A DNA stretch of 64,000 nt, from the NCBI GenBank assembly GCA_019240525.1, contig JAFAYE010000001.1:2639300-2703299 (forward strand), given 5' to 3'. Below, piece by piece: positions 7,949-63,934 of this stretch. The first letter of the stretch is position 1. Each line of letters begins with the position of its first letter. The notes under the pieces are model-generated. The model had not been told where the DNA came from. It was given only the letters and a program-made list of their open reading frames with translations, and made no database searches. This DNA is from Candidatus Eremiobacterota bacterium (GTDB lineage: Bacteria > Vulcanimicrobiota > Vulcanimicrobiia > Vulcanimicrobiales > Vulcanimicrobiaceae). Made by a program: the position numbers and the translations under genes.

Positions 7949-8107
7949 CCCTTCGACAAGCTCAGGGTGACACGTTACGACAAGCTCGCCCTTCGACAGG
8001 CTCAGGGTGACACTGTCGTTCACCCTTCGACAGGCTCAGGGTGACAATGTCATGCGCCCTTCGACACAGGCTCGCCCTTCGACAGGCTCAGGGTGACAGG
8101 GGTGACA
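7949..8107. repeat. Short-repeat cluster between HAF lipoprotein and hppA
   Basis: At least four copies of the CCCTTCGACAGGCTCAGGG unit plus a GTGACA tail, some truncated, with irregular spacers. They fill the space between the promoter side of the HAF gene and the 3' end of hppA. Confidence 0.9.
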
Positions 8108-19849: not shown

Positions 19850-19933
19850 CCTTCGACAGGCTCACCCTTCGACAAGCTCAGGGTGACACAGCGCCCTTCG
19901 ACAGGCGCACCCTTCGACAAGCTCAGGGTGACA
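19849..19933. repeat. Short-repeat cluster upstream of the MFS gene
   Basis: Four copies of the CCTTCGACAGGC / CTTCGACAAGCTCAGGGTGAC unit in tandem. They fill the gap between the transporter start and the end of the next minus-strand gene. Confidence 0.9.
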
Positions 19934-48288: not shown

Positions 48289-49215
48289 ATGGAGTTCGTA
48301 AGTCTTGGCCGTCTCGCGCTTAGTATCAGCGCCACTGCTCTATTACTTTCAGCGTGCGGCGGATCTACACCGCCGATCGGCACGCTCGGGGCGGCCGACA
48401 ACAACGTTAATTCCCATCCGCAGCAGAAAACATTTCTCTATACCGGCACGGAGCAGTCGTTCAAAGTCCCGGCGAGTGTGACCAGAATCGACGTGGTCGC
48501 ACGAGGGGCGTCCGGTGGCACCCAGTATTACCAGGACGGCGGCGGGCGCGGTGGTCGCGTGCACGCGATTATTCCTGTCGTGCCAGGTGAAAGATTGGCA
48601 GTTTTTGTTGGCGGCGCCGCTTCGGGGCTGAACCAGACCAACGGTGGTTTCAACGGCGGCGGGAACGGAGGCGGACCCTACCAGTGCTGCACCGGAACCG
48701 GTGGCGGTGGCGCGTCTGATGTACGGCAACATGGCGACAGACCTTCGAATCGCGTTGTCGTGGCCGGAGGCGGAGGGGGACAAGGGGCAGGTAACGGTGG
48801 GGGTGTCGGTGGCAGCGGTGGAGGTCCCACTGGAGGCTCCGGTGGGCAATACGGCTACGCCTGCGACGGCGGCGGGGGAAGCGGCGGCAACCAGACATCG
48901 GGCGGGGCGGGTGGTGCCGGTGGCCTGGGTTCTCAAGCTGGTGGCCCTGGAGCGCCCGGATCGCGCGGCGCCGGGGGCACTGGCGGCGCCGAAGGCGAGG
49001 GATCCTCATCCACCGTGGGGGCTGGCGGCGGCGGCGGTGGTGGAGGATACTTCGGCGGCGGCGGCGGCGGTGGAGGCGGGGGTTACTGTTTTGGTTATGG
49101 AGGCGGCGGCGGTGGCGGGTCGTCCTACATCGAGCCAAACGCCATAAAATTCCACACGTGGCGAGGTTGGAAGAACGCAACGAGTAACGGGCTCGTCGTC
49201 TTGAGCTGGCAATGA
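48289..49215 (+). CDS. Glycine-rich lipoprotein of ALK/LTK glycine-rich-domain type
   Basis: 308 residues, lipobox LSA-Cys23. After a short linker, FLYTGTEQSFKVPASVTRIDVVARGA begins a domain that continues with GGRGGRVHAIIPVVPGERLAVFVGG, TGGGGASDVR and RVVVAGGGGG. Long Gly runs follow and it ends SSYIEPN. This is the pattern of bacterial glycine-rich proteins related to PF12810. Its signal peptide and GGSxPPIG linker are like those of the neighbouring propeller lipoproteins. Its stop overlaps the next ATG. Confidence 0.75.
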   Translation: MEFVSLGRLALSISATALLLSACGGSTPPIGTLGAADNNVNSHPQQKTFLYTGTEQSFKVPASVTRIDVVARGASGGTQYYQDGGGRGGRVHAIIPVVPGERLAVFVGGAASGLNQTNGGFNGGGNGGGPYQCCTGTGGGGASDVRQHGDRPSNRVVVAGGGGGQGAGNGGGVGGSGGGPTGGSGGQYGYACDGGGGSGGNQTSGGAGGAGGLGSQAGGPGAPGSRGAGGTGGAEGEGSSSTVGAGGGGGGGGYFGGGGGGGGGGYCFGYGGGGGGGSSYIEPNAIKFHTWRGWKNATSNGLVVLSWQ

Positions 49216-53274: not shown

Positions 53275-54267
53275 CTATTCCGGCCAGATACGAACTTCGT
53301 TCGACTCACGGAAGCGAACCGGAACAGTGCGGCCCTGAGCCTGCAATCTTCGCCTAAGCCGGTACCCTCGCTCCTTGACTTGGTCACGTTCCTGCGGATC
53401 ACCGCCTGAGTGCAAGAAAATGGTTATCTCCGGTACACGGCTTCGCTCAATTGCTCTCGCAATATGGTCGTCATTTTCGTCGAAGGCAAACCCGTAAATG
53501 CATAGTGGAAGGTCGTTTGCTCTTAGAGCTTCATAGCAGTAATTAAGGTAAGGACTTTGGCGAATCGCGTTGAGTTTTTGGCGCGACTCGCCTTCAGAAA
53601 CAAACAAAGGTATGTCGCCGGCGTCCAACGCTTCCCGTAGCTGGTCCGTTATTCGCCCTTGAGCGTAGCTGCGCTTAAATGTCTCGTCCTCAACTCGAAA
53701 TAGATGTAGACCACCATGAACGTAAAAGACCGTTTGGTCGCCTTCCCCCTGTCGCCAATGAAGATCATCACCGCCGAAGCCGTCTCGATGCTTGTCAAAC
53801 AATCGCGGCGCCATTACCCAGTAGAGCAGCAGGTCATAGGTTAGAGTAAAGACCCTGTCATAGTCATGGAGGAAGTTGGCACAGATTTCCTTATCTGCTT
53901 CCTCGACGTAATCGGCATCACGTGGGTGGTACGCAGTCAATGCGTGTATCAAGGATGATCGGACTAAACGAACATCTGTGCGAAGGCGCGTCAAAACTGG
54001 AGCCGTCTCATCGTAGTGCCTGAGCAGCGCCACGGCCTCGTTTAACCGTCGCATCACCATTTCGAAGTCCGAGGTACCTACCGTATCAAAGACCGCCTCC
54101 AGGCGCTCGGGAAACTGTGCACCTTCTCTCAGCGATTCGTAGCAGAACATGGGATCATAAGCGGCGCTAAAGCCATTTCCCAACAACAATGCTCCAGGCA
54201 ACTGAAACTCGATCTCCTTTAATGAGGCGACGCGGCGGTTCCGACGATGTTCCGATCCAATCGGCAA
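53275..54267 (-). CDS. DUF4917 SIR2-like protein
   Basis: About 330 residues. It shows the pattern of SIR2-type NAD-binding folds: GALLLGNGFSAAYDPMFCY for the glycine-rich loop, TLTYDLLLYW in place of the usual TxNYD, YVHGGLHLF for the His-Gly motif, and ICIYGFAFDENDDHI-like strands near the C-terminus. These features match DUF4917. SIR2-like proteins often act as NAD-depleting effectors in phage defence; whether this one does is inference. The TTG at 54267 is the best start. A DUF5677-like gene precedes it. Confidence 0.72.
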   Translation of the reverse strand: MPIGSEHRRNRRVASLKEIEFQLPGALLLGNGFSAAYDPMFCYESLREGAQFPERLEAVFDTVGTSDFEMVMRRLNEAVALLRHYDETAPVLTRLRTDVRLVRSSLIHALTAYHPRDADYVEEADKEICANFLHDYDRVFTLTYDLLLYWVMAPRLFDKHRDGFGGDDLHWRQGEGDQTVFYVHGGLHLFRVEDETFKRSYAQGRITDQLREALDAGDIPLFVSEGESRQKLNAIRQSPYLNYCYEALRANDLPLCIYGFAFDENDDHIARAIERSRVPEITIFLHSGGDPQERDQVKERGYRLRRRLQAQGRTVPVRFRESNEVRIWPE

Positions 54268-54384: not shown

Positions 54385-55203
54385 TCATGTGCCGCGCCTC
54401 AGCATCCGAACGAAGCCTTCTGAGAATGAACTATCTTTGGCGTAGCACCATCCGCGGATCATCTCGATTGACACCATGATCTCGTGGCAATATGCGAACG
54501 CGTTGGCGAGGATGATATAGGGCTTAAATCGCTCCGACTGCCAGAATACCGAGAGCGTGCCTTTTGCAATGTCACCTTCGCGAATTGTGTCTATGATAGT
54601 TACTTGGTCACCATGCAGGTGCGCGCTTAGAATTTGATTTTCGAGGTATAGAGAGCCGAGCGTCTCGTTAGAGGTCACTTCACACATGTGAGAAATTCGG
54701 CGAGTTAGTACCTTCCGGTTTTTGCGAAGCTTGGCCTGTGTCTTACGCCTCTCATGCTCTGGTATATTTTCCAGAGCTTTAGCGCCCTGCTTCCTAATTA
54801 TGTCGTAGATCTTGTCCTCCGCGTTTCTCCAGTCTTGGTAGGCATGGCATTGTGCCAGGTAATTCTTGCTACTGCGCCGACCTTTGGCGAGCCATTTATT
54901 TCTCGACTCGGTAGATTGAATAACATAGTAACGAAGGCGTAGATGATAGTCTAAGAGCGGCCTCTGCAGCATGTAAGCAGCGCGAACGCGATTTAGTTTG
55001 AGCAAAGCAATACAGCTGCACAGAATATCATGTGCCAGTACGCCGAGATTCACAGCCCAGCTACTGAGATAGTCATCGAAGTCATCTTTAGGACGGTTCG
55101 ATATGACATGCTCAATGGCACCCTTGAAGTTTTCCGCAAAGTCGTCCATAAATGCAAACTCATCGTCTGTAATGGGTTCGTCGTCGGTCAAAATCGCTCC
55201 CAA
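54385..55203 (-). CDS. DUF5677-like helical protein
   Basis: 272 residues, mostly alpha-helical. HDILCSCIALLKLNRVRAAYMLQRPLLDYHLRLRYYV fits the DUF5677 pattern of helices with a conserved R-P/S-LLE-type turn. HLHGDQVTI lies in the C-terminal half. Function is unknown. It sits between the SIR2-like gene (117 bases downstream) and an HTH fragment upstream, all on the minus strand. Base composition is visibly more AT-rich than around it, suggesting transfer. Confidence 0.55.
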   Translation of the reverse strand: MGAILTDDEPITDDEFAFMDDFAENFKGAIEHVISNRPKDDFDDYLSSWAVNLGVLAHDILCSCIALLKLNRVRAAYMLQRPLLDYHLRLRYYVIQSTESRNKWLAKGRRSSKNYLAQCHAYQDWRNAEDKIYDIIRKQGAKALENIPEHERRKTQAKLRKNRKVLTRRISHMCEVTSNETLGSLYLENQILSAHLHGDQVTIIDTIREGDIAKGTLSVFWQSERFKPYIILANAFAYCHEIMVSIEMIRGWCYAKDSSFSEGFVRMLRRGT

Positions 55204-55223: not shown

Positions 55224-55619
55224 CTAAGCTGACCCTACTGAGTACAACTGGAGAGCGGCACGCAGTATATCTCTGTTCTTGGGATGCGGCCTCCGCCCCG
55301 CCCGAATGGCCTGAAGCGTCGACCGCGAAAGCCCGCGTCTCTCCATGAGCTCGGGTAGCGGCATGGCTTTGAGCTTCGGCAGAATCTTCGTAGTCCACGC
55401 GTCACGCCGTAGATCGAGGTACTGGGTGCAGACGTCGCTTGGATCGAGTAGGCTTTGCTCTTCGACCTCTTCTAGCTTGTTCGACTCCTTGCCCATGTAT
55501 GTGAGCGAATCGATTGCCTCGTGGCGCCTTCTGAGCAGCCCTTCGGTCTGCTTCGAGCGAGGCTTTCCGGTCGAATCGGCGCGCTTGGCTTCGGGATGAA
55601 CCTCGTACTCGCGCAGCAC
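55224..55619 (-). pseudogene. C-terminal fragment with an HTH, from a larger gene
   Basis: 131 codons from a GTG. The end (LPELMERRGLSRSTLQAIRAGRRPHPKNR) is an XRE-like helix-turn-helix. Before it, YGDVLREYEVHPEAK and GKESNKLEEVEEQSLL recall the C-terminal part of long plasmid or phage-type hypothetical proteins. The same frame is open only to about 55680, while a second frame (55690-55768) carries further protein-like sequence. This suggests a truncated, frameshifted gene rather than an intact regulator. Confidence 0.5.
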
Positions 55620-55777: not shown

Positions 55778-57673
55778 TCACGATGTTGCGAGCACGACCA
55801 CACTGCCGTCGGTCGGATCCCGTTCGACCAAGGCGACGAGCGGGTTAGCGAGATACTCGATGGCCGCTCTCACGTCGGCGCGCGTGCAGGTCGCCGAACT
55901 TCCGTTGGCGGCTAAATCTTGATCGACGAGCACCATTGCGACGTCTTCGGTAATCCTGGGCGCTTCCGATGACGCGCCGGAATATCCGGCCTGCGTAATC
56001 CTTCCCGTACGCACGATGGCGTCGGCGATAAGCCGCACGCGCTTGGCGCGGCCGTGATGGCGCTCCCACAACACGTCGTCGAGCGCATCGGCCGCGAAGC
56101 CCGGCGCAAACAGCGGCCGCATTTCGAAAGCGTTTGCGCCTATCCGCAGCAGCGTTTCCAGATCGTCAACGGTCCAGGCGCTCACGCCGTGATTGTGCAG
56201 CTCCTTGACCAACTCGATCTCGCCGGAGAACGCGCGGCCGACAAGCGCCGAGAACTGGGCACCAAATGCGTCTTTATACTTTGCCGCCTCAAAGACACTC
56301 GGGTCGTTCGTGCCTTCGTCGCCCGACTTACACTCGATCATCACCCGGTAGCCCAGCGGTCCTAATAAGGCGTCGGCATAACCGTCGGGAGCTTTTTGTC
56401 CGCCGCTATGGGTCGCCGCGAACCCAAGCTTGTCGAACGCATCGCAGACCGCTTCTTCGAAGGCGTTCGCGTCGGCGCCACTGGCGGTGCGGTGCAACCG
56501 CTCGATGAGCGCCGCAATTTCGGGCCCGCACTCCTTAGGCTGCTCTTCGGAAACCGCCGGCCACTCATCCGGAGGCTCGTTGATGCGGAACGAGCGGTCG
56601 GCATTCTGGACCACCGCGGGCTTGCGCCCGTTGCCGTTTGCTCGCGCGATATACTCGATGAGCGAAGTATAGACGTACTTCACCGTCGTCTTTGCGTCGA
56701 GTAAGCCGCGCTTCATGGCAATCGTCAGAATCTCGTCGGCCGAGTGCGAAAGCCCATCTTGAAGCACCGTAATTGCCGCATTCACGATCGGCCCGTGCGA
56801 CTTTTGCGCCGGCATGGGCTCGGGCCAAGCAACGCTCTCGTGGCGAAACTCGGCAAAGCGCTGCTCGTAGAATCGCGCGGGTTGCGTTACGAACGGATCG
56901 CCAAGGCGCTCCATCCACTCGGCGAAGTTGGCGGCGCAGACTCTGCCGTTGAGCGGGCGGCCGTTATGCTGATTCGTCGCGTTCTCTTTCGCGATAGCAA
57001 AGGCAAGCGGATAATCCGGAGCGGCACGAACGGAATAGGGCAGCACGCTGAATCGGGCTACGGCATTTGTCTGCACGTGCAAGTGAATGGGCGGTCCACC
57101 ATGGCTATTCGGCTGCAGCGTTACAAGATCGGGGTGCCGCGTTGCCGCCTGCGCGCACTGCGCATGCAGCCACGGTCGTACTTCTTCGTAACTGGGACCA
57201 TCGCAAAACGGAATCCAAAGTGCCGCGCCGGTTCCGCCGTCGTAAACTCTGAGCGATTCGATTTTCCCATCCGATAACACGTCCTCGACGGCACTCAGAC
57301 CGGCCTCCAACGTGCGAAAATCGGCATTCGGCAGAGCTTCGATCAGAATTCGCGCAAAGCGTACACGGGTCGGATCGGAAGGTTCGGGCGACCATGAATA
57401 TAGTTCGACGGCACCATGCCGCACCAAGCCTTCGATGCGTTCACTTGAAAGCGCCGGGTACCGGTGTAGGCCGCTCGCAGTCGGCACATCGACAATCGGT
57501 CCCTTCGGCTTGGTATGCACCGAGAGAGGCCCGTGAAAGATCGTCGGCCCATCGAATCCCGCGGGTAATGTCGACCAGACAAAGGGAATTTTTCCGAAGG
57601 CCCGCTCGAGGATTGGACCGGCAACGGCGTAATGCCGCAGCAACAGATCGGTGTCGAGACTTCGCCCCAACAT
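55778..57673 (-). CDS. LigD-polymerase-like / HARE-HTH / PD-(D/E)XK nuclease fusion
   Basis: 631 residues. Residues 10-230 follow the order of the LigD polymerase (primase-like) domain: LLRHYAVAGPILERAF, LVRHGAVELYSWS, YDGGTGAALWIPF, SYEEVRPW and LPYSVRAAPDYPL. The catalytic DLD and the active-site His are replaced (FARILIEAL; GTGAALW), so polymerase activity is unlikely. Residues about 295-345 look like a HARE-HTH (ITVLQDGLSHSADEILTIAMKRGLL). Residues 400-520 look like a restriction-endonuclease fold: FEEAV, GGQKAPDGYAD and IECKSG supply Glu, Asp and the E-x-K pair. A DNA-recognising nuclease is likely. Confidence 0.7.
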   Translation of the reverse strand: MLGRSLDTDLLLRHYAVAGPILERAFGKIPFVWSTLPAGFDGPTIFHGPLSVHTKPKGPIVDVPTASGLHRYPALSSERIEGLVRHGAVELYSWSPEPSDPTRVRFARILIEALPNADFRTLEAGLSAVEDVLSDGKIESLRVYDGGTGAALWIPFCDGPSYEEVRPWLHAQCAQAATRHPDLVTLQPNSHGGPPIHLHVQTNAVARFSVLPYSVRAAPDYPLAFAIAKENATNQHNGRPLNGRVCAANFAEWMERLGDPFVTQPARFYEQRFAEFRHESVAWPEPMPAQKSHGPIVNAAITVLQDGLSHSADEILTIAMKRGLLDAKTTVKYVYTSLIEYIARANGNGRKPAVVQNADRSFRINEPPDEWPAVSEEQPKECGPEIAALIERLHRTASGADANAFEEAVCDAFDKLGFAATHSGGQKAPDGYADALLGPLGYRVMIECKSGDEGTNDPSVFEAAKYKDAFGAQFSALVGRAFSGEIELVKELHNHGVSAWTVDDLETLLRIGANAFEMRPLFAPGFAADALDDVLWERHHGRAKRVRLIADAIVRTGRITQAGYSGASSEAPRITEDVAMVLVDQDLAANGSSATCTRADVRAAIEYLANPLVALVERDPTDGSVVVLATS

Positions 57674-62572: not shown

Positions 62573-63934
62573 ATGAAGACATCAGCTCGCATCAGTTACG
62601 TACTAGGCTGCGTCACGTTGGCATTACTTACAGCGTGTGGCGCCCTTCGACAGGCTCAGGGTGACAGTGCCCTTCCACAGGCTCAGGGTGACAATGCCCT
62701 TCGACAGGCTCAGGGTGACAGTACCCTTCCTCAGGCTCAGGGTGACATGCCCCTCGTCGCAGCGTCGAAGCATCGCGTCAATCGCGCGACTTCATATCAA
62801 CTGATCTATAGCTTTCGTCCTCAAAAGAACGGTATTTATCCTGAAGCGGGATTGCTCGACGTCAACGGCACCTTGTATGGGACGACGGCGAGTGGGGGTC
62901 TTTCGGGCAAGGGAACCGTCTATGGCATCGGCACGAGCGGCGTGCCCAAGGTGCTCTACCGATTCCGAGGTGGTTCCGACGGAAGCGAGCCGCAATCCGC
63001 ATTACTCAACGTGAACGGTACGCTGTACGGCACCACTGCCTACGGAGGTTCGTCCAACGCTGGAACGATCTATAGCATTAGTACTTCGGGAACCGAAAGT
63101 GTGGTGTACAGCTTCAAGGGAGGCGCCGATGGAGCTAACCCGGTCGCGGGTCTGGTCGATGTGAACGGCACGTTGTACGGCACGACTTCCGCCGGAGGCG
63201 GTTCGGGATGTTATGGCGGCGCCGGGTGCGGGACCGTATTCAGCGTCGGCGCGAGCGGCCAAGAGAGTGTTCTACACCGTTTCACCGGTGGCGCTGACGG
63301 CGCGGTGCCCGTGGCCGAGTTAATTGACGTCAACGGCGTGCTATACGGCACTACCGCGCAGGGCGGCAAGTGCGGGGGCAAGTCCGGCGACTGCGGGACG
63401 GTTTACACCATCACGCCGGCCGGTACGGAAAAGGTGCTCTATGCCTTTCGTGGGGGGACTGACGGGGAGGCGCCGACGGCGGGGTTGATCGATATGAACG
63501 GTACGCTTTATGGCACGACGTATCAAGGTGGTCAGAGCGGGTCGGATTGCGGCGGCAGTTGCGGCACGGTCTATCAAATCAGCCCGGCAGGAGCGGAAAA
63601 AGTCATCTACCGTTTTGCGGACGGCACCGACGGTGCGGCGCCGCAAGCCGAGTTGATAGCGGTGAACGGCGTGCTGTACGGCACGACGACCGGGGGCGGC
63701 GATGTCGGATCGTGCTTCCAGTTCCACGGCAACTGCGGAACCGTCTTTAGCGTAACCACCGCGGGCGTCGAGACGGTGCTGTATCGCTTCGTCGGTGGAA
63801 CCGACGGTTGGTCACCCCTGGCACCCTTGACGAATTTGAACGGCACGCTCTATGGAACGACGGTACACGGAGGAGTCCGCGACGTTTGCTGCCACACTTA
63901 CGGTTACGGCACGATTTTCTCAGTGTCGCCCTAA
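62573..63934 (+). CDS. GloVer-repeat lipoprotein with four repeat-derived nonapeptides
   Basis: 453 residues, lipobox LTA-Cys22. Residues 25-60 are four nonapeptides of the type LRQAQGDSA or LPQAQGDNA, encoded by four copies of the intergenic short repeat at an exact 27-base period. The rest is about eight GloVer (TIGR03803) repeats: NGTLYGTTASGGLSGKGTVY, ESVVYSFKGGADGANPVAGL and so on. A second gene with a near-identical signal peptide starts at 63962. Confidence 0.9.
   Translation: MKTSARISYVLGCVTLALLTACGALRQAQGDSALPQAQGDNALRQAQGDSTLPQAQGDMPLVAASKHRVNRATSYQLIYSFRPQKNGIYPEAGLLDVNGTLYGTTASGGLSGKGTVYGIGTSGVPKVLYRFRGGSDGSEPQSALLNVNGTLYGTTAYGGSSNAGTIYSISTSGTESVVYSFKGGADGANPVAGLVDVNGTLYGTTSAGGGSGCYGGAGCGTVFSVGASGQESVLHRFTGGADGAVPVAELIDVNGVLYGTTAQGGKCGGKSGDCGTVYTITPAGTEKVLYAFRGGTDGEAPTAGLIDMNGTLYGTTYQGGQSGSDCGGSCGTVYQISPAGAEKVIYRFADGTDGAAPQAELIAVNGVLYGTTTGGGDVGSCFQFHGNCGTVFSVTTAGVETVLYRFVGGTDGWSPLAPLTNLNGTLYGTTVHGGVRDVCCHTYGYGTIFSVSP
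62643..62750 (+). repeat. Four in-frame short-repeat copies in a lipoprotein gene
   Basis: Copies start at 62643, 62670, 62697 and 62724, 27 bases apart. The first and third keep CCCTTCGACAGG; the second has CCACAGG and the fourth CCTCAGG. All keep the reading frame. Confidence 0.95.

Follow-up and report, generated by a model that had tools for sequence, protein, structure and literature searches.

A polymerase fold of the LigD type, deprived of its catalytic residues, is found in a soil bacterium (Candidatus Eremiobacterota) within the same protein as a PD-(D/E)XK nuclease domain. The predicted models give the domain order as dead LigD polymerase (module A), then winged helix, nuclease and a further winged helix (together, module B). 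This protein, encoded in the stretch of 64,000 nucleotides that we analysed (the window), belongs to a family for which we favour, with the scales about evenly balanced, a role as a horizontally moving anti-invader nuclease of restriction type, where the dead polymerase would be the DNA-recognition part. That it makes up a new class of defence nucleases, in which a dead end-joining polymerase fold reads invader DNA, we propose more tentatively.

The reading frame opens with ATG and runs from 57673 down to 55778; the initial annotation had these coordinates exactly and missed the minus strand. Its central claim, that a LigD-type polymerase domain without catalysis is joined to a well-formed PD-(D/E)XK nuclease, agrees with Pfam, fold comparison and residue counts, while it overlooked the second winged helix, the versions split between two genes, those made of A or B only, and the mobility of the gene. 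A whole-protein AlphaFold2 model, built with 24 family sequences, has a mean pLDDT of 83.5 and a pTM of 0.51, so that the domain folds are trustworthy and their relative placement is not. With this model Foldseek places LigD-type polymerases at the top (best 2.6e-13, TM-score 0.77 by target) and then FokI (4e-7), for which VIA-align gives Z 16.4. As whole-model searches are dominated by module A, module B was folded separately.

Table 1. Location of the family gene, its predicted domains and its downstream neighbours (window coordinates)
Feature	Position	Strand	Basis
Whole gene, 631 aa: dead LigD polymerase domain, winged helix, PD-(D/E)XK nuclease, winged helix	55778..57673	-	ORF and translation
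Module A, residues 1-287: LigD polymerase (PrimPol/AEP) fold without catalytic residues	56813..57673	-	PF21686, profile, VIA
First winged helix, residues 294-365	56579..56794	-	predicted model
PD-(D/E)XK nuclease domain, residues ~383-525	56099..56527	-	fold matches, Mrr_cat
Putative nuclease active site, E406 - D430 - E447-x-K449	56327..56458	-	conservation in 47 copies
C-terminal helical and winged-helix domain, residues 527-628, with conserved W-x-R-x-H-G-x-x-K-R	55790..56095	-	fold, conservation
131-aa ORF, weak match to HTH, first ORF after the 3′ end of the family gene	55224..55619	-	
Unannotated 272-aa gene, between the SIR2-like and family genes	54385..55203	-	
SIR2-like DUF4917 gene, candidate defence gene PDC-S21	53275..54267	-	PF16263 6e-48

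Module A and the LigD polymerase fold

The Pfam model LigD_Prim-Pol (PF21686) matches residues 11-260 at 6.2e-11, with 42.8 bits against a gathering cut-off of 27.4, so that the resemblance to LigD is not a matter of chance; NCBIfam ligD_pol matches at 1.6e-9, yet far under its equivalog cut-off. A profile of 24 family members, compared with the solved polymerase domains of LigD and Prim-PolC, reaches 3.1e-26 with that of M. tuberculosis LigD. The initial annotation had made its reading depend on a profile match of this kind, and both searches provide one. In VIA-align, module A superposes on the archaeal NHEJ polymerase 5dmu with Z 29.4 (267 residues, 2.6 A) and on 2iru with Z 28.6. The PYSVRA signature recognized at the outset lies at residues 212-217.

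The catalytic positions were compared in an alignment of 41 family copies of module A with the LigD proteins of M. tuberculosis and P. aeruginosa, the Methanocella polymerase and two intact LigD polymerase genes from the same genome, using the residue numbers of M. tuberculosis LigD. Motif I here reads RILIE, L110 and E112 standing where LigD has D137 and D139, and A151 replaces the histidine of motif II (equivalent to H178), which bears out the absence of the DLD and of the active-site histidine noticed beforehand; at motif III, H199 stands for D227. The same holds well beyond the protein of the window: D137 and D139 are kept in none of the 41 copies (23 have E in place of the latter), nor is the motif II histidine, and D227 is found in seven. 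Homologues that all kept the DxD residues were named as what would overturn the original reading, which therefore survives. The loss of catalytic residues thus extends to the whole family and is old, with the fold retained. The aromatic residue equivalent to Phe64 (here F46), which in LigD stacks on the templating base (PMC8656161), is F, Y or W in 39 of the 41 copies; Asn231 is retained in 39 and Tyr241 in all. Judged from its residues, module A is a descendant of the LigD polymerase fold, predicted not to be a working member of it.

The 5′-phosphate pocket of LigD is made of Asn13, Lys16 and Lys26 (PMC8656161). This segment is absent from the family, in that the profile alignment to solved structures starts after it; only about ten residues precede the LigD-aligned region in the window protein, and no pocket-like motif was seen in homologues with longer leaders. 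The early suggestion that the protein binds DNA ends is weakened as a consequence, at least for binding in the LigD manner.

In the tree, the module A copies make up a single group separate from LigD, on a long stem (100/100). Module A also stands alone (L128-L132) in five species of one genus, at a single locus beside a GNAT acetyltransferase gene. Its dN/dS there is 0.22-0.36, next to 0.25-0.36 for the GNAT gene, which indicates purifying selection on a dead polymerase without nuclease, hence some function of its own. The GNAT gene was considered as a partner of these copies and rejected, as this is one vertically inherited locus of a single genus.

Module B, a nuclease between two winged helices

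Folded alone, module B reaches a pLDDT of 88.8 and a pTM of 0.79. It aligns with HindIII (Z 15.6, 2.9 A), with BspD6I (Z 13.1) and with FokI (Z 16.6 over 212 residues), where the overall rmsd of 13-14 A corresponds to the same domains in another arrangement. Pfam Mrr_cat matches the window protein weakly (residues 401-478, 5e-3) and 18 of 24 family members, at best at 2.6e-7. The nuclease site had been placed at Glu406, Asp430 or Asp434, and Glu447-x-Lys449, exactly where the conserved residues are found: E406, D430 and E447 are present in 47 of 47 homologous copies and K449 in 45. Kept in 42, D434 is a poorer active-site candidate than D430. The nuclease signature thus appears intact, and we infer from it that the family would cut DNA.

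The first winged helix is modelled with helices at 295-304, 312-321 and 331-347 and wing strands at 354-356 and 362-364; it aligns with the winged helix that precedes the cleavage domain of FokI. This region had been described as HARE-HTH-like. A winged helix is present; membership in the HARE group is not established: Pfam PF05066 gives no match at E 0.1 in 24 family members, hhalign against a HARE profile of just four sequences gives a probability of 66% over 52 columns, and the extra inserted helix that characterizes HARE-HTH among winged helices (PMC11037411) is absent between helices 312-321 and 331-347 in either predicted model. The second winged helix corresponds to residues ~540-628. 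The last ~90 residues of module B resemble winged helices such as Cul1 WHB (Z 9.3, rmsd 2.0 A), and H540 and G541 of the C-terminal domain are found in all 47 copies.

Distribution, forms and surroundings of the family

As far as searched, the family is confined to the phylum Candidatus Eremiobacterota. From 84,980 species genomes 29 loci were recovered, all in Candidatus Eremiobacterota (WPS-2, UBP12) or in unnamed bins of that set, by a scan that relied on two peptide patterns and leaves room for relatives in other phyla. Relatives in genome contigs came from an alignment used as query, a single-protein query giving none. The viral contigs and phage collections searched contained no relatives, and the plasmid collection contained only ordinary LigD of rhizobia and similar organisms, so that no direct vehicle of the transfer came to light there. 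Within the phylum, 90 of 149 genomes have a match, many of these being ordinary LigD. Presence of the family is patchy within genus and family, many copies are broken, and a genome may contain up to nine matching places; that of the window has a second family copy, interrupted by a stop.

HMMs of the two modules were run over some 60 loci. About half of these (~28, several broken) have A fused to B, in the domain order that was to be sought in homologues. Elsewhere the modules are adjacent genes, with A first (L041, L055, L056, L068, L071, L072) or B first (L057, L065, L067), or lie on opposite strands (L059, L062, L069); B occurs without A at L058, L060, L070, L073 and L141-L143, and A without B in the five species considered above. 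The tree requires seven or more switches between the fused and the separate condition. In the separate pairs, the distances between A modules follow those between B modules (r=0.78, a value equalled in one of 5000 permutations). Fusion in one order, neighbouring genes in both orders and co-variation argue together for a physical partnership of A and B, and the genomes that carry A alone or B alone argue against a strict dependence. Extra copies may also be found side by side, as A-B-B at L055 and as a fused A-B followed by another A at L047.

A block of 1,897 bp, containing little besides the family gene, is 98.3% identical across two genera whose rpoB genes are 78% identical at the DNA level; its flanks are unrelated, a combination that shows recent transfer of a single gene between genera. 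Copies within a genome are old, divergent paralogues and not the outcome of a recent burst. Repeats bounding the gene were sought at two recent copies and yielded chance-level pairs only; a tRNA as insertion site was rejected, none being present within the window. A 73-bp sequence that adjoins the transferred gene on its 3′ side in L053 (8908-8980) recurs, 93% identical, 5 kb off in L052 (3935-4006), and is perhaps part of the donor or an insertion site.

A look at the neighbours for defence genes had been advised, and these are abundant. Taking three genes on each side, plus two slightly more distant genes of the window, 139 neighbours match 207 PADLOC models (E<=1e-8), against 3 models for 130 control genes, taken from the centre of twenty control regions in the same genomes; these figures count models, redundant since there are several per protein, and not proteins. 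Solid individual examples are the type I-C Cas3, Cas8c and Cas7 (L049), a type III methyltransferase next to ResIII (L046), Cas9 (L050), AbiEii (L039) and a CBASS-type endonuclease effector (L055); DrmD and other methyltransferases are matched as well. Many other copies of the family sit by housekeeping genes. Among 40 loci we saw neither a constant partner gene nor a conserved companion methyltransferase; clusters of putative operon partners were rejected, their recurrence being due to chance or to housekeeping genes (thermolysin-like protease, toxin-antitoxin pairs). In the window, the SIR2-like gene, 1.5 kb downstream of the family gene on the same strand, matches PADLOC PDC-S21 at 1.6e-84 and Aga_SIR2 at 1.1e-3; the two genes that separate them could form a two-gene unit.

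Two further features of the window may be recorded. A repeat with the 15-nt core TTCGACAAGCTCAGG has 18 sites (0.18 expected), 17 of them on the plus strand, for example at 884-1002, 7952-8092, 19868-19927 and 62646-62714, the last within a coding ORF, where it reads LRQAQGDSALPQ...; it also occurs in frame inside a family member (L046, 9682-9729 and 10615). Paralogous lipoprotein-like genes with a leader of the type GGSxxPIGAPGAMPQSR (starts or lower ends at 49212, 50400, 51229, 58500 and 61018) form two clusters on opposite strands.

Interpretation and comparison with known systems

In the scenario that we favour, module A, relieved of catalysis, would have been kept as a DNA-binding or recognition part, most likely to grip a junction between single and double strand, a gap or an open DNA end. 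Contacts with the duplex would come from the two winged helices, which perhaps share in recognition, and the FokI-like PD-(D/E)XK domain would cut the DNA so held, probably as a dimer as FokI does. Self DNA might be spared without any methyltransferase, either through a structure-specific target or through a required pairing of two monomers. Were the family a new class, machinery for break repair would have become a detector of incoming DNA, sensing its exposed ends, gaps or replication intermediates, either as a single fused protein or as a pair of subunits inherited together. An anti-invader role draws its strength from a LigD fold without catalysis that keeps its stacking aromatic, from the conserved nuclease site, the A-B link and the purifying selection on A where it stands alone, and from defence-rich neighbours, transfer, patchy presence and broken copies; it is weakened by the absence of a conserved partner and of a companion methyltransferase, by the many copies beside housekeeping genes, by the redundancy of the PADLOC count, by the genomes with A or B alone and by the lack of relatives in the viral, phage and plasmid collections searched.

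Other accounts must be weighed against this role. Near-identical blocks at unrelated sites in two genera, up to nine matching places in a genome and a partner gene that is never conserved would suit a selfish mobile gene, whose nuclease and DNA-binding domains promote its own spread (like a homing endonuclease or an insertion-site element) with defence incidental. We hold this to be unlikely, as bounding repeats were not found at the two recent copies, in-genome copies are old and divergent, the surroundings are enriched for defence genes, and the splitting and co-variation of A and B are to be expected of a machine in two parts more than of a homing enzyme. Descent from the LigD polymerase, in a genome that has Ku and two intact-looking LigD polymerase genes, one of them adjoining Ku, might rather evoke an accessory of DNA repair, in which a partner such as Ku brings the dead polymerase to breaks and the nuclease trims ends for joining; patchy distribution, lateral transfer, decayed copies and a defence-rich setting are, however, not those of a housekeeping repair gene, and with the pocket for the 5′-phosphate used in synapsing breaks gone as well, this is quite improbable.

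The ligand of module A may also be a protein (e.g. Ku) or a nucleotide rather than DNA. Dead enzyme folds frequently serve as sensors, and off DNA module A might bind a phage protein or else a nucleotide, and restrain the nuclease until triggered, resulting in abortive infection. Such control could operate in trans, A and B being separate proteins at some loci, and a SIR2-like candidate abortive-infection gene is nearby; against this, the residues for NTP phosphate and metal are lost while the template-stacking aromatic is retained, and no ligand-making partner gene was seen, which leaves it a minor possibility.

Should the anti-invader reading be correct, this would be the first family known to us in which a restriction-like nuclease has a LigD-type polymerase domain as a module without catalytic function. 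The movement of the gene between genomes and its frequent place among defence genes suggest that a repair enzyme was turned to the task of targeting a defence nuclease. With catalysis lost and the stacking aromatic kept, one may ask whether the fold of a polymerase can serve anew as a reader of DNA structure. The fused, split, reversed and A-only forms render the logic of the family testable, and the family opens a way to the defence repertoire of a phylum of which scarcely any member has been cultured. By the open-access literature it is undescribed: we met there no account of a fusion between LigD polymerase and nuclease (papers elsewhere are possible), and the single paper linking LigD and restriction concerns the exclusion of PabI and Ku.

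Several known systems share parts of this architecture. LigD Pol and Prim-PolC (PF21686; 2iru, 2fao, 5dmu, 6sa0) have the whole fold and motif order in common with module A, together with the conserved N, P and Y, often PYSxR, and the template-stacking aromatic; module A is without the DxD, the motif II histidine and the 5′-phosphate segment, has mostly lost the motif III aspartate, and is joined to a nuclease where LigD Pol is joined to a ligase. PrimPol-PV1 and CAPP (CRISPR-associated Prim-Pol) have the AEP fold (Z 14.6 for CAPP) but are active polymerases of other AEP lineages, module A being nearest to LigD Pol (Z 29). The REase-HARE-HTH fusions of phosphorothioate-modification neighbourhoods (PMC10853773) likewise couple, in a conflict setting, a DNA reader of winged-helix type to a restriction-type nuclease; they are without a LigD Pol domain, and no Dnd genes are found among the annotated neighbours of the family. 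By analogy, the family product would act, if at all, like FokI or like a winged-helix type IV enzyme. With FokI (type IIS) it shares a winged helix before the PD-(D/E)XK domain and the spacing L/HGG-x(2,3)-PDG, E/D-x-K, the D1-D2 recognition domains being replaced here by a dead polymerase and a C-terminal winged helix, and the companion methyltransferase of FokI-type systems having no conserved counterpart. With the type IV enzymes of the Mrr/winged-helix-fusion kind (PMC11037411) it shares a winged helix, a PD-(D/E)XK domain (Mrr_cat) and the condition of a solo gene, and it differs from them by E-x-K in the place of the Q-x-K of Mrr and by its additional LigD Pol domain.
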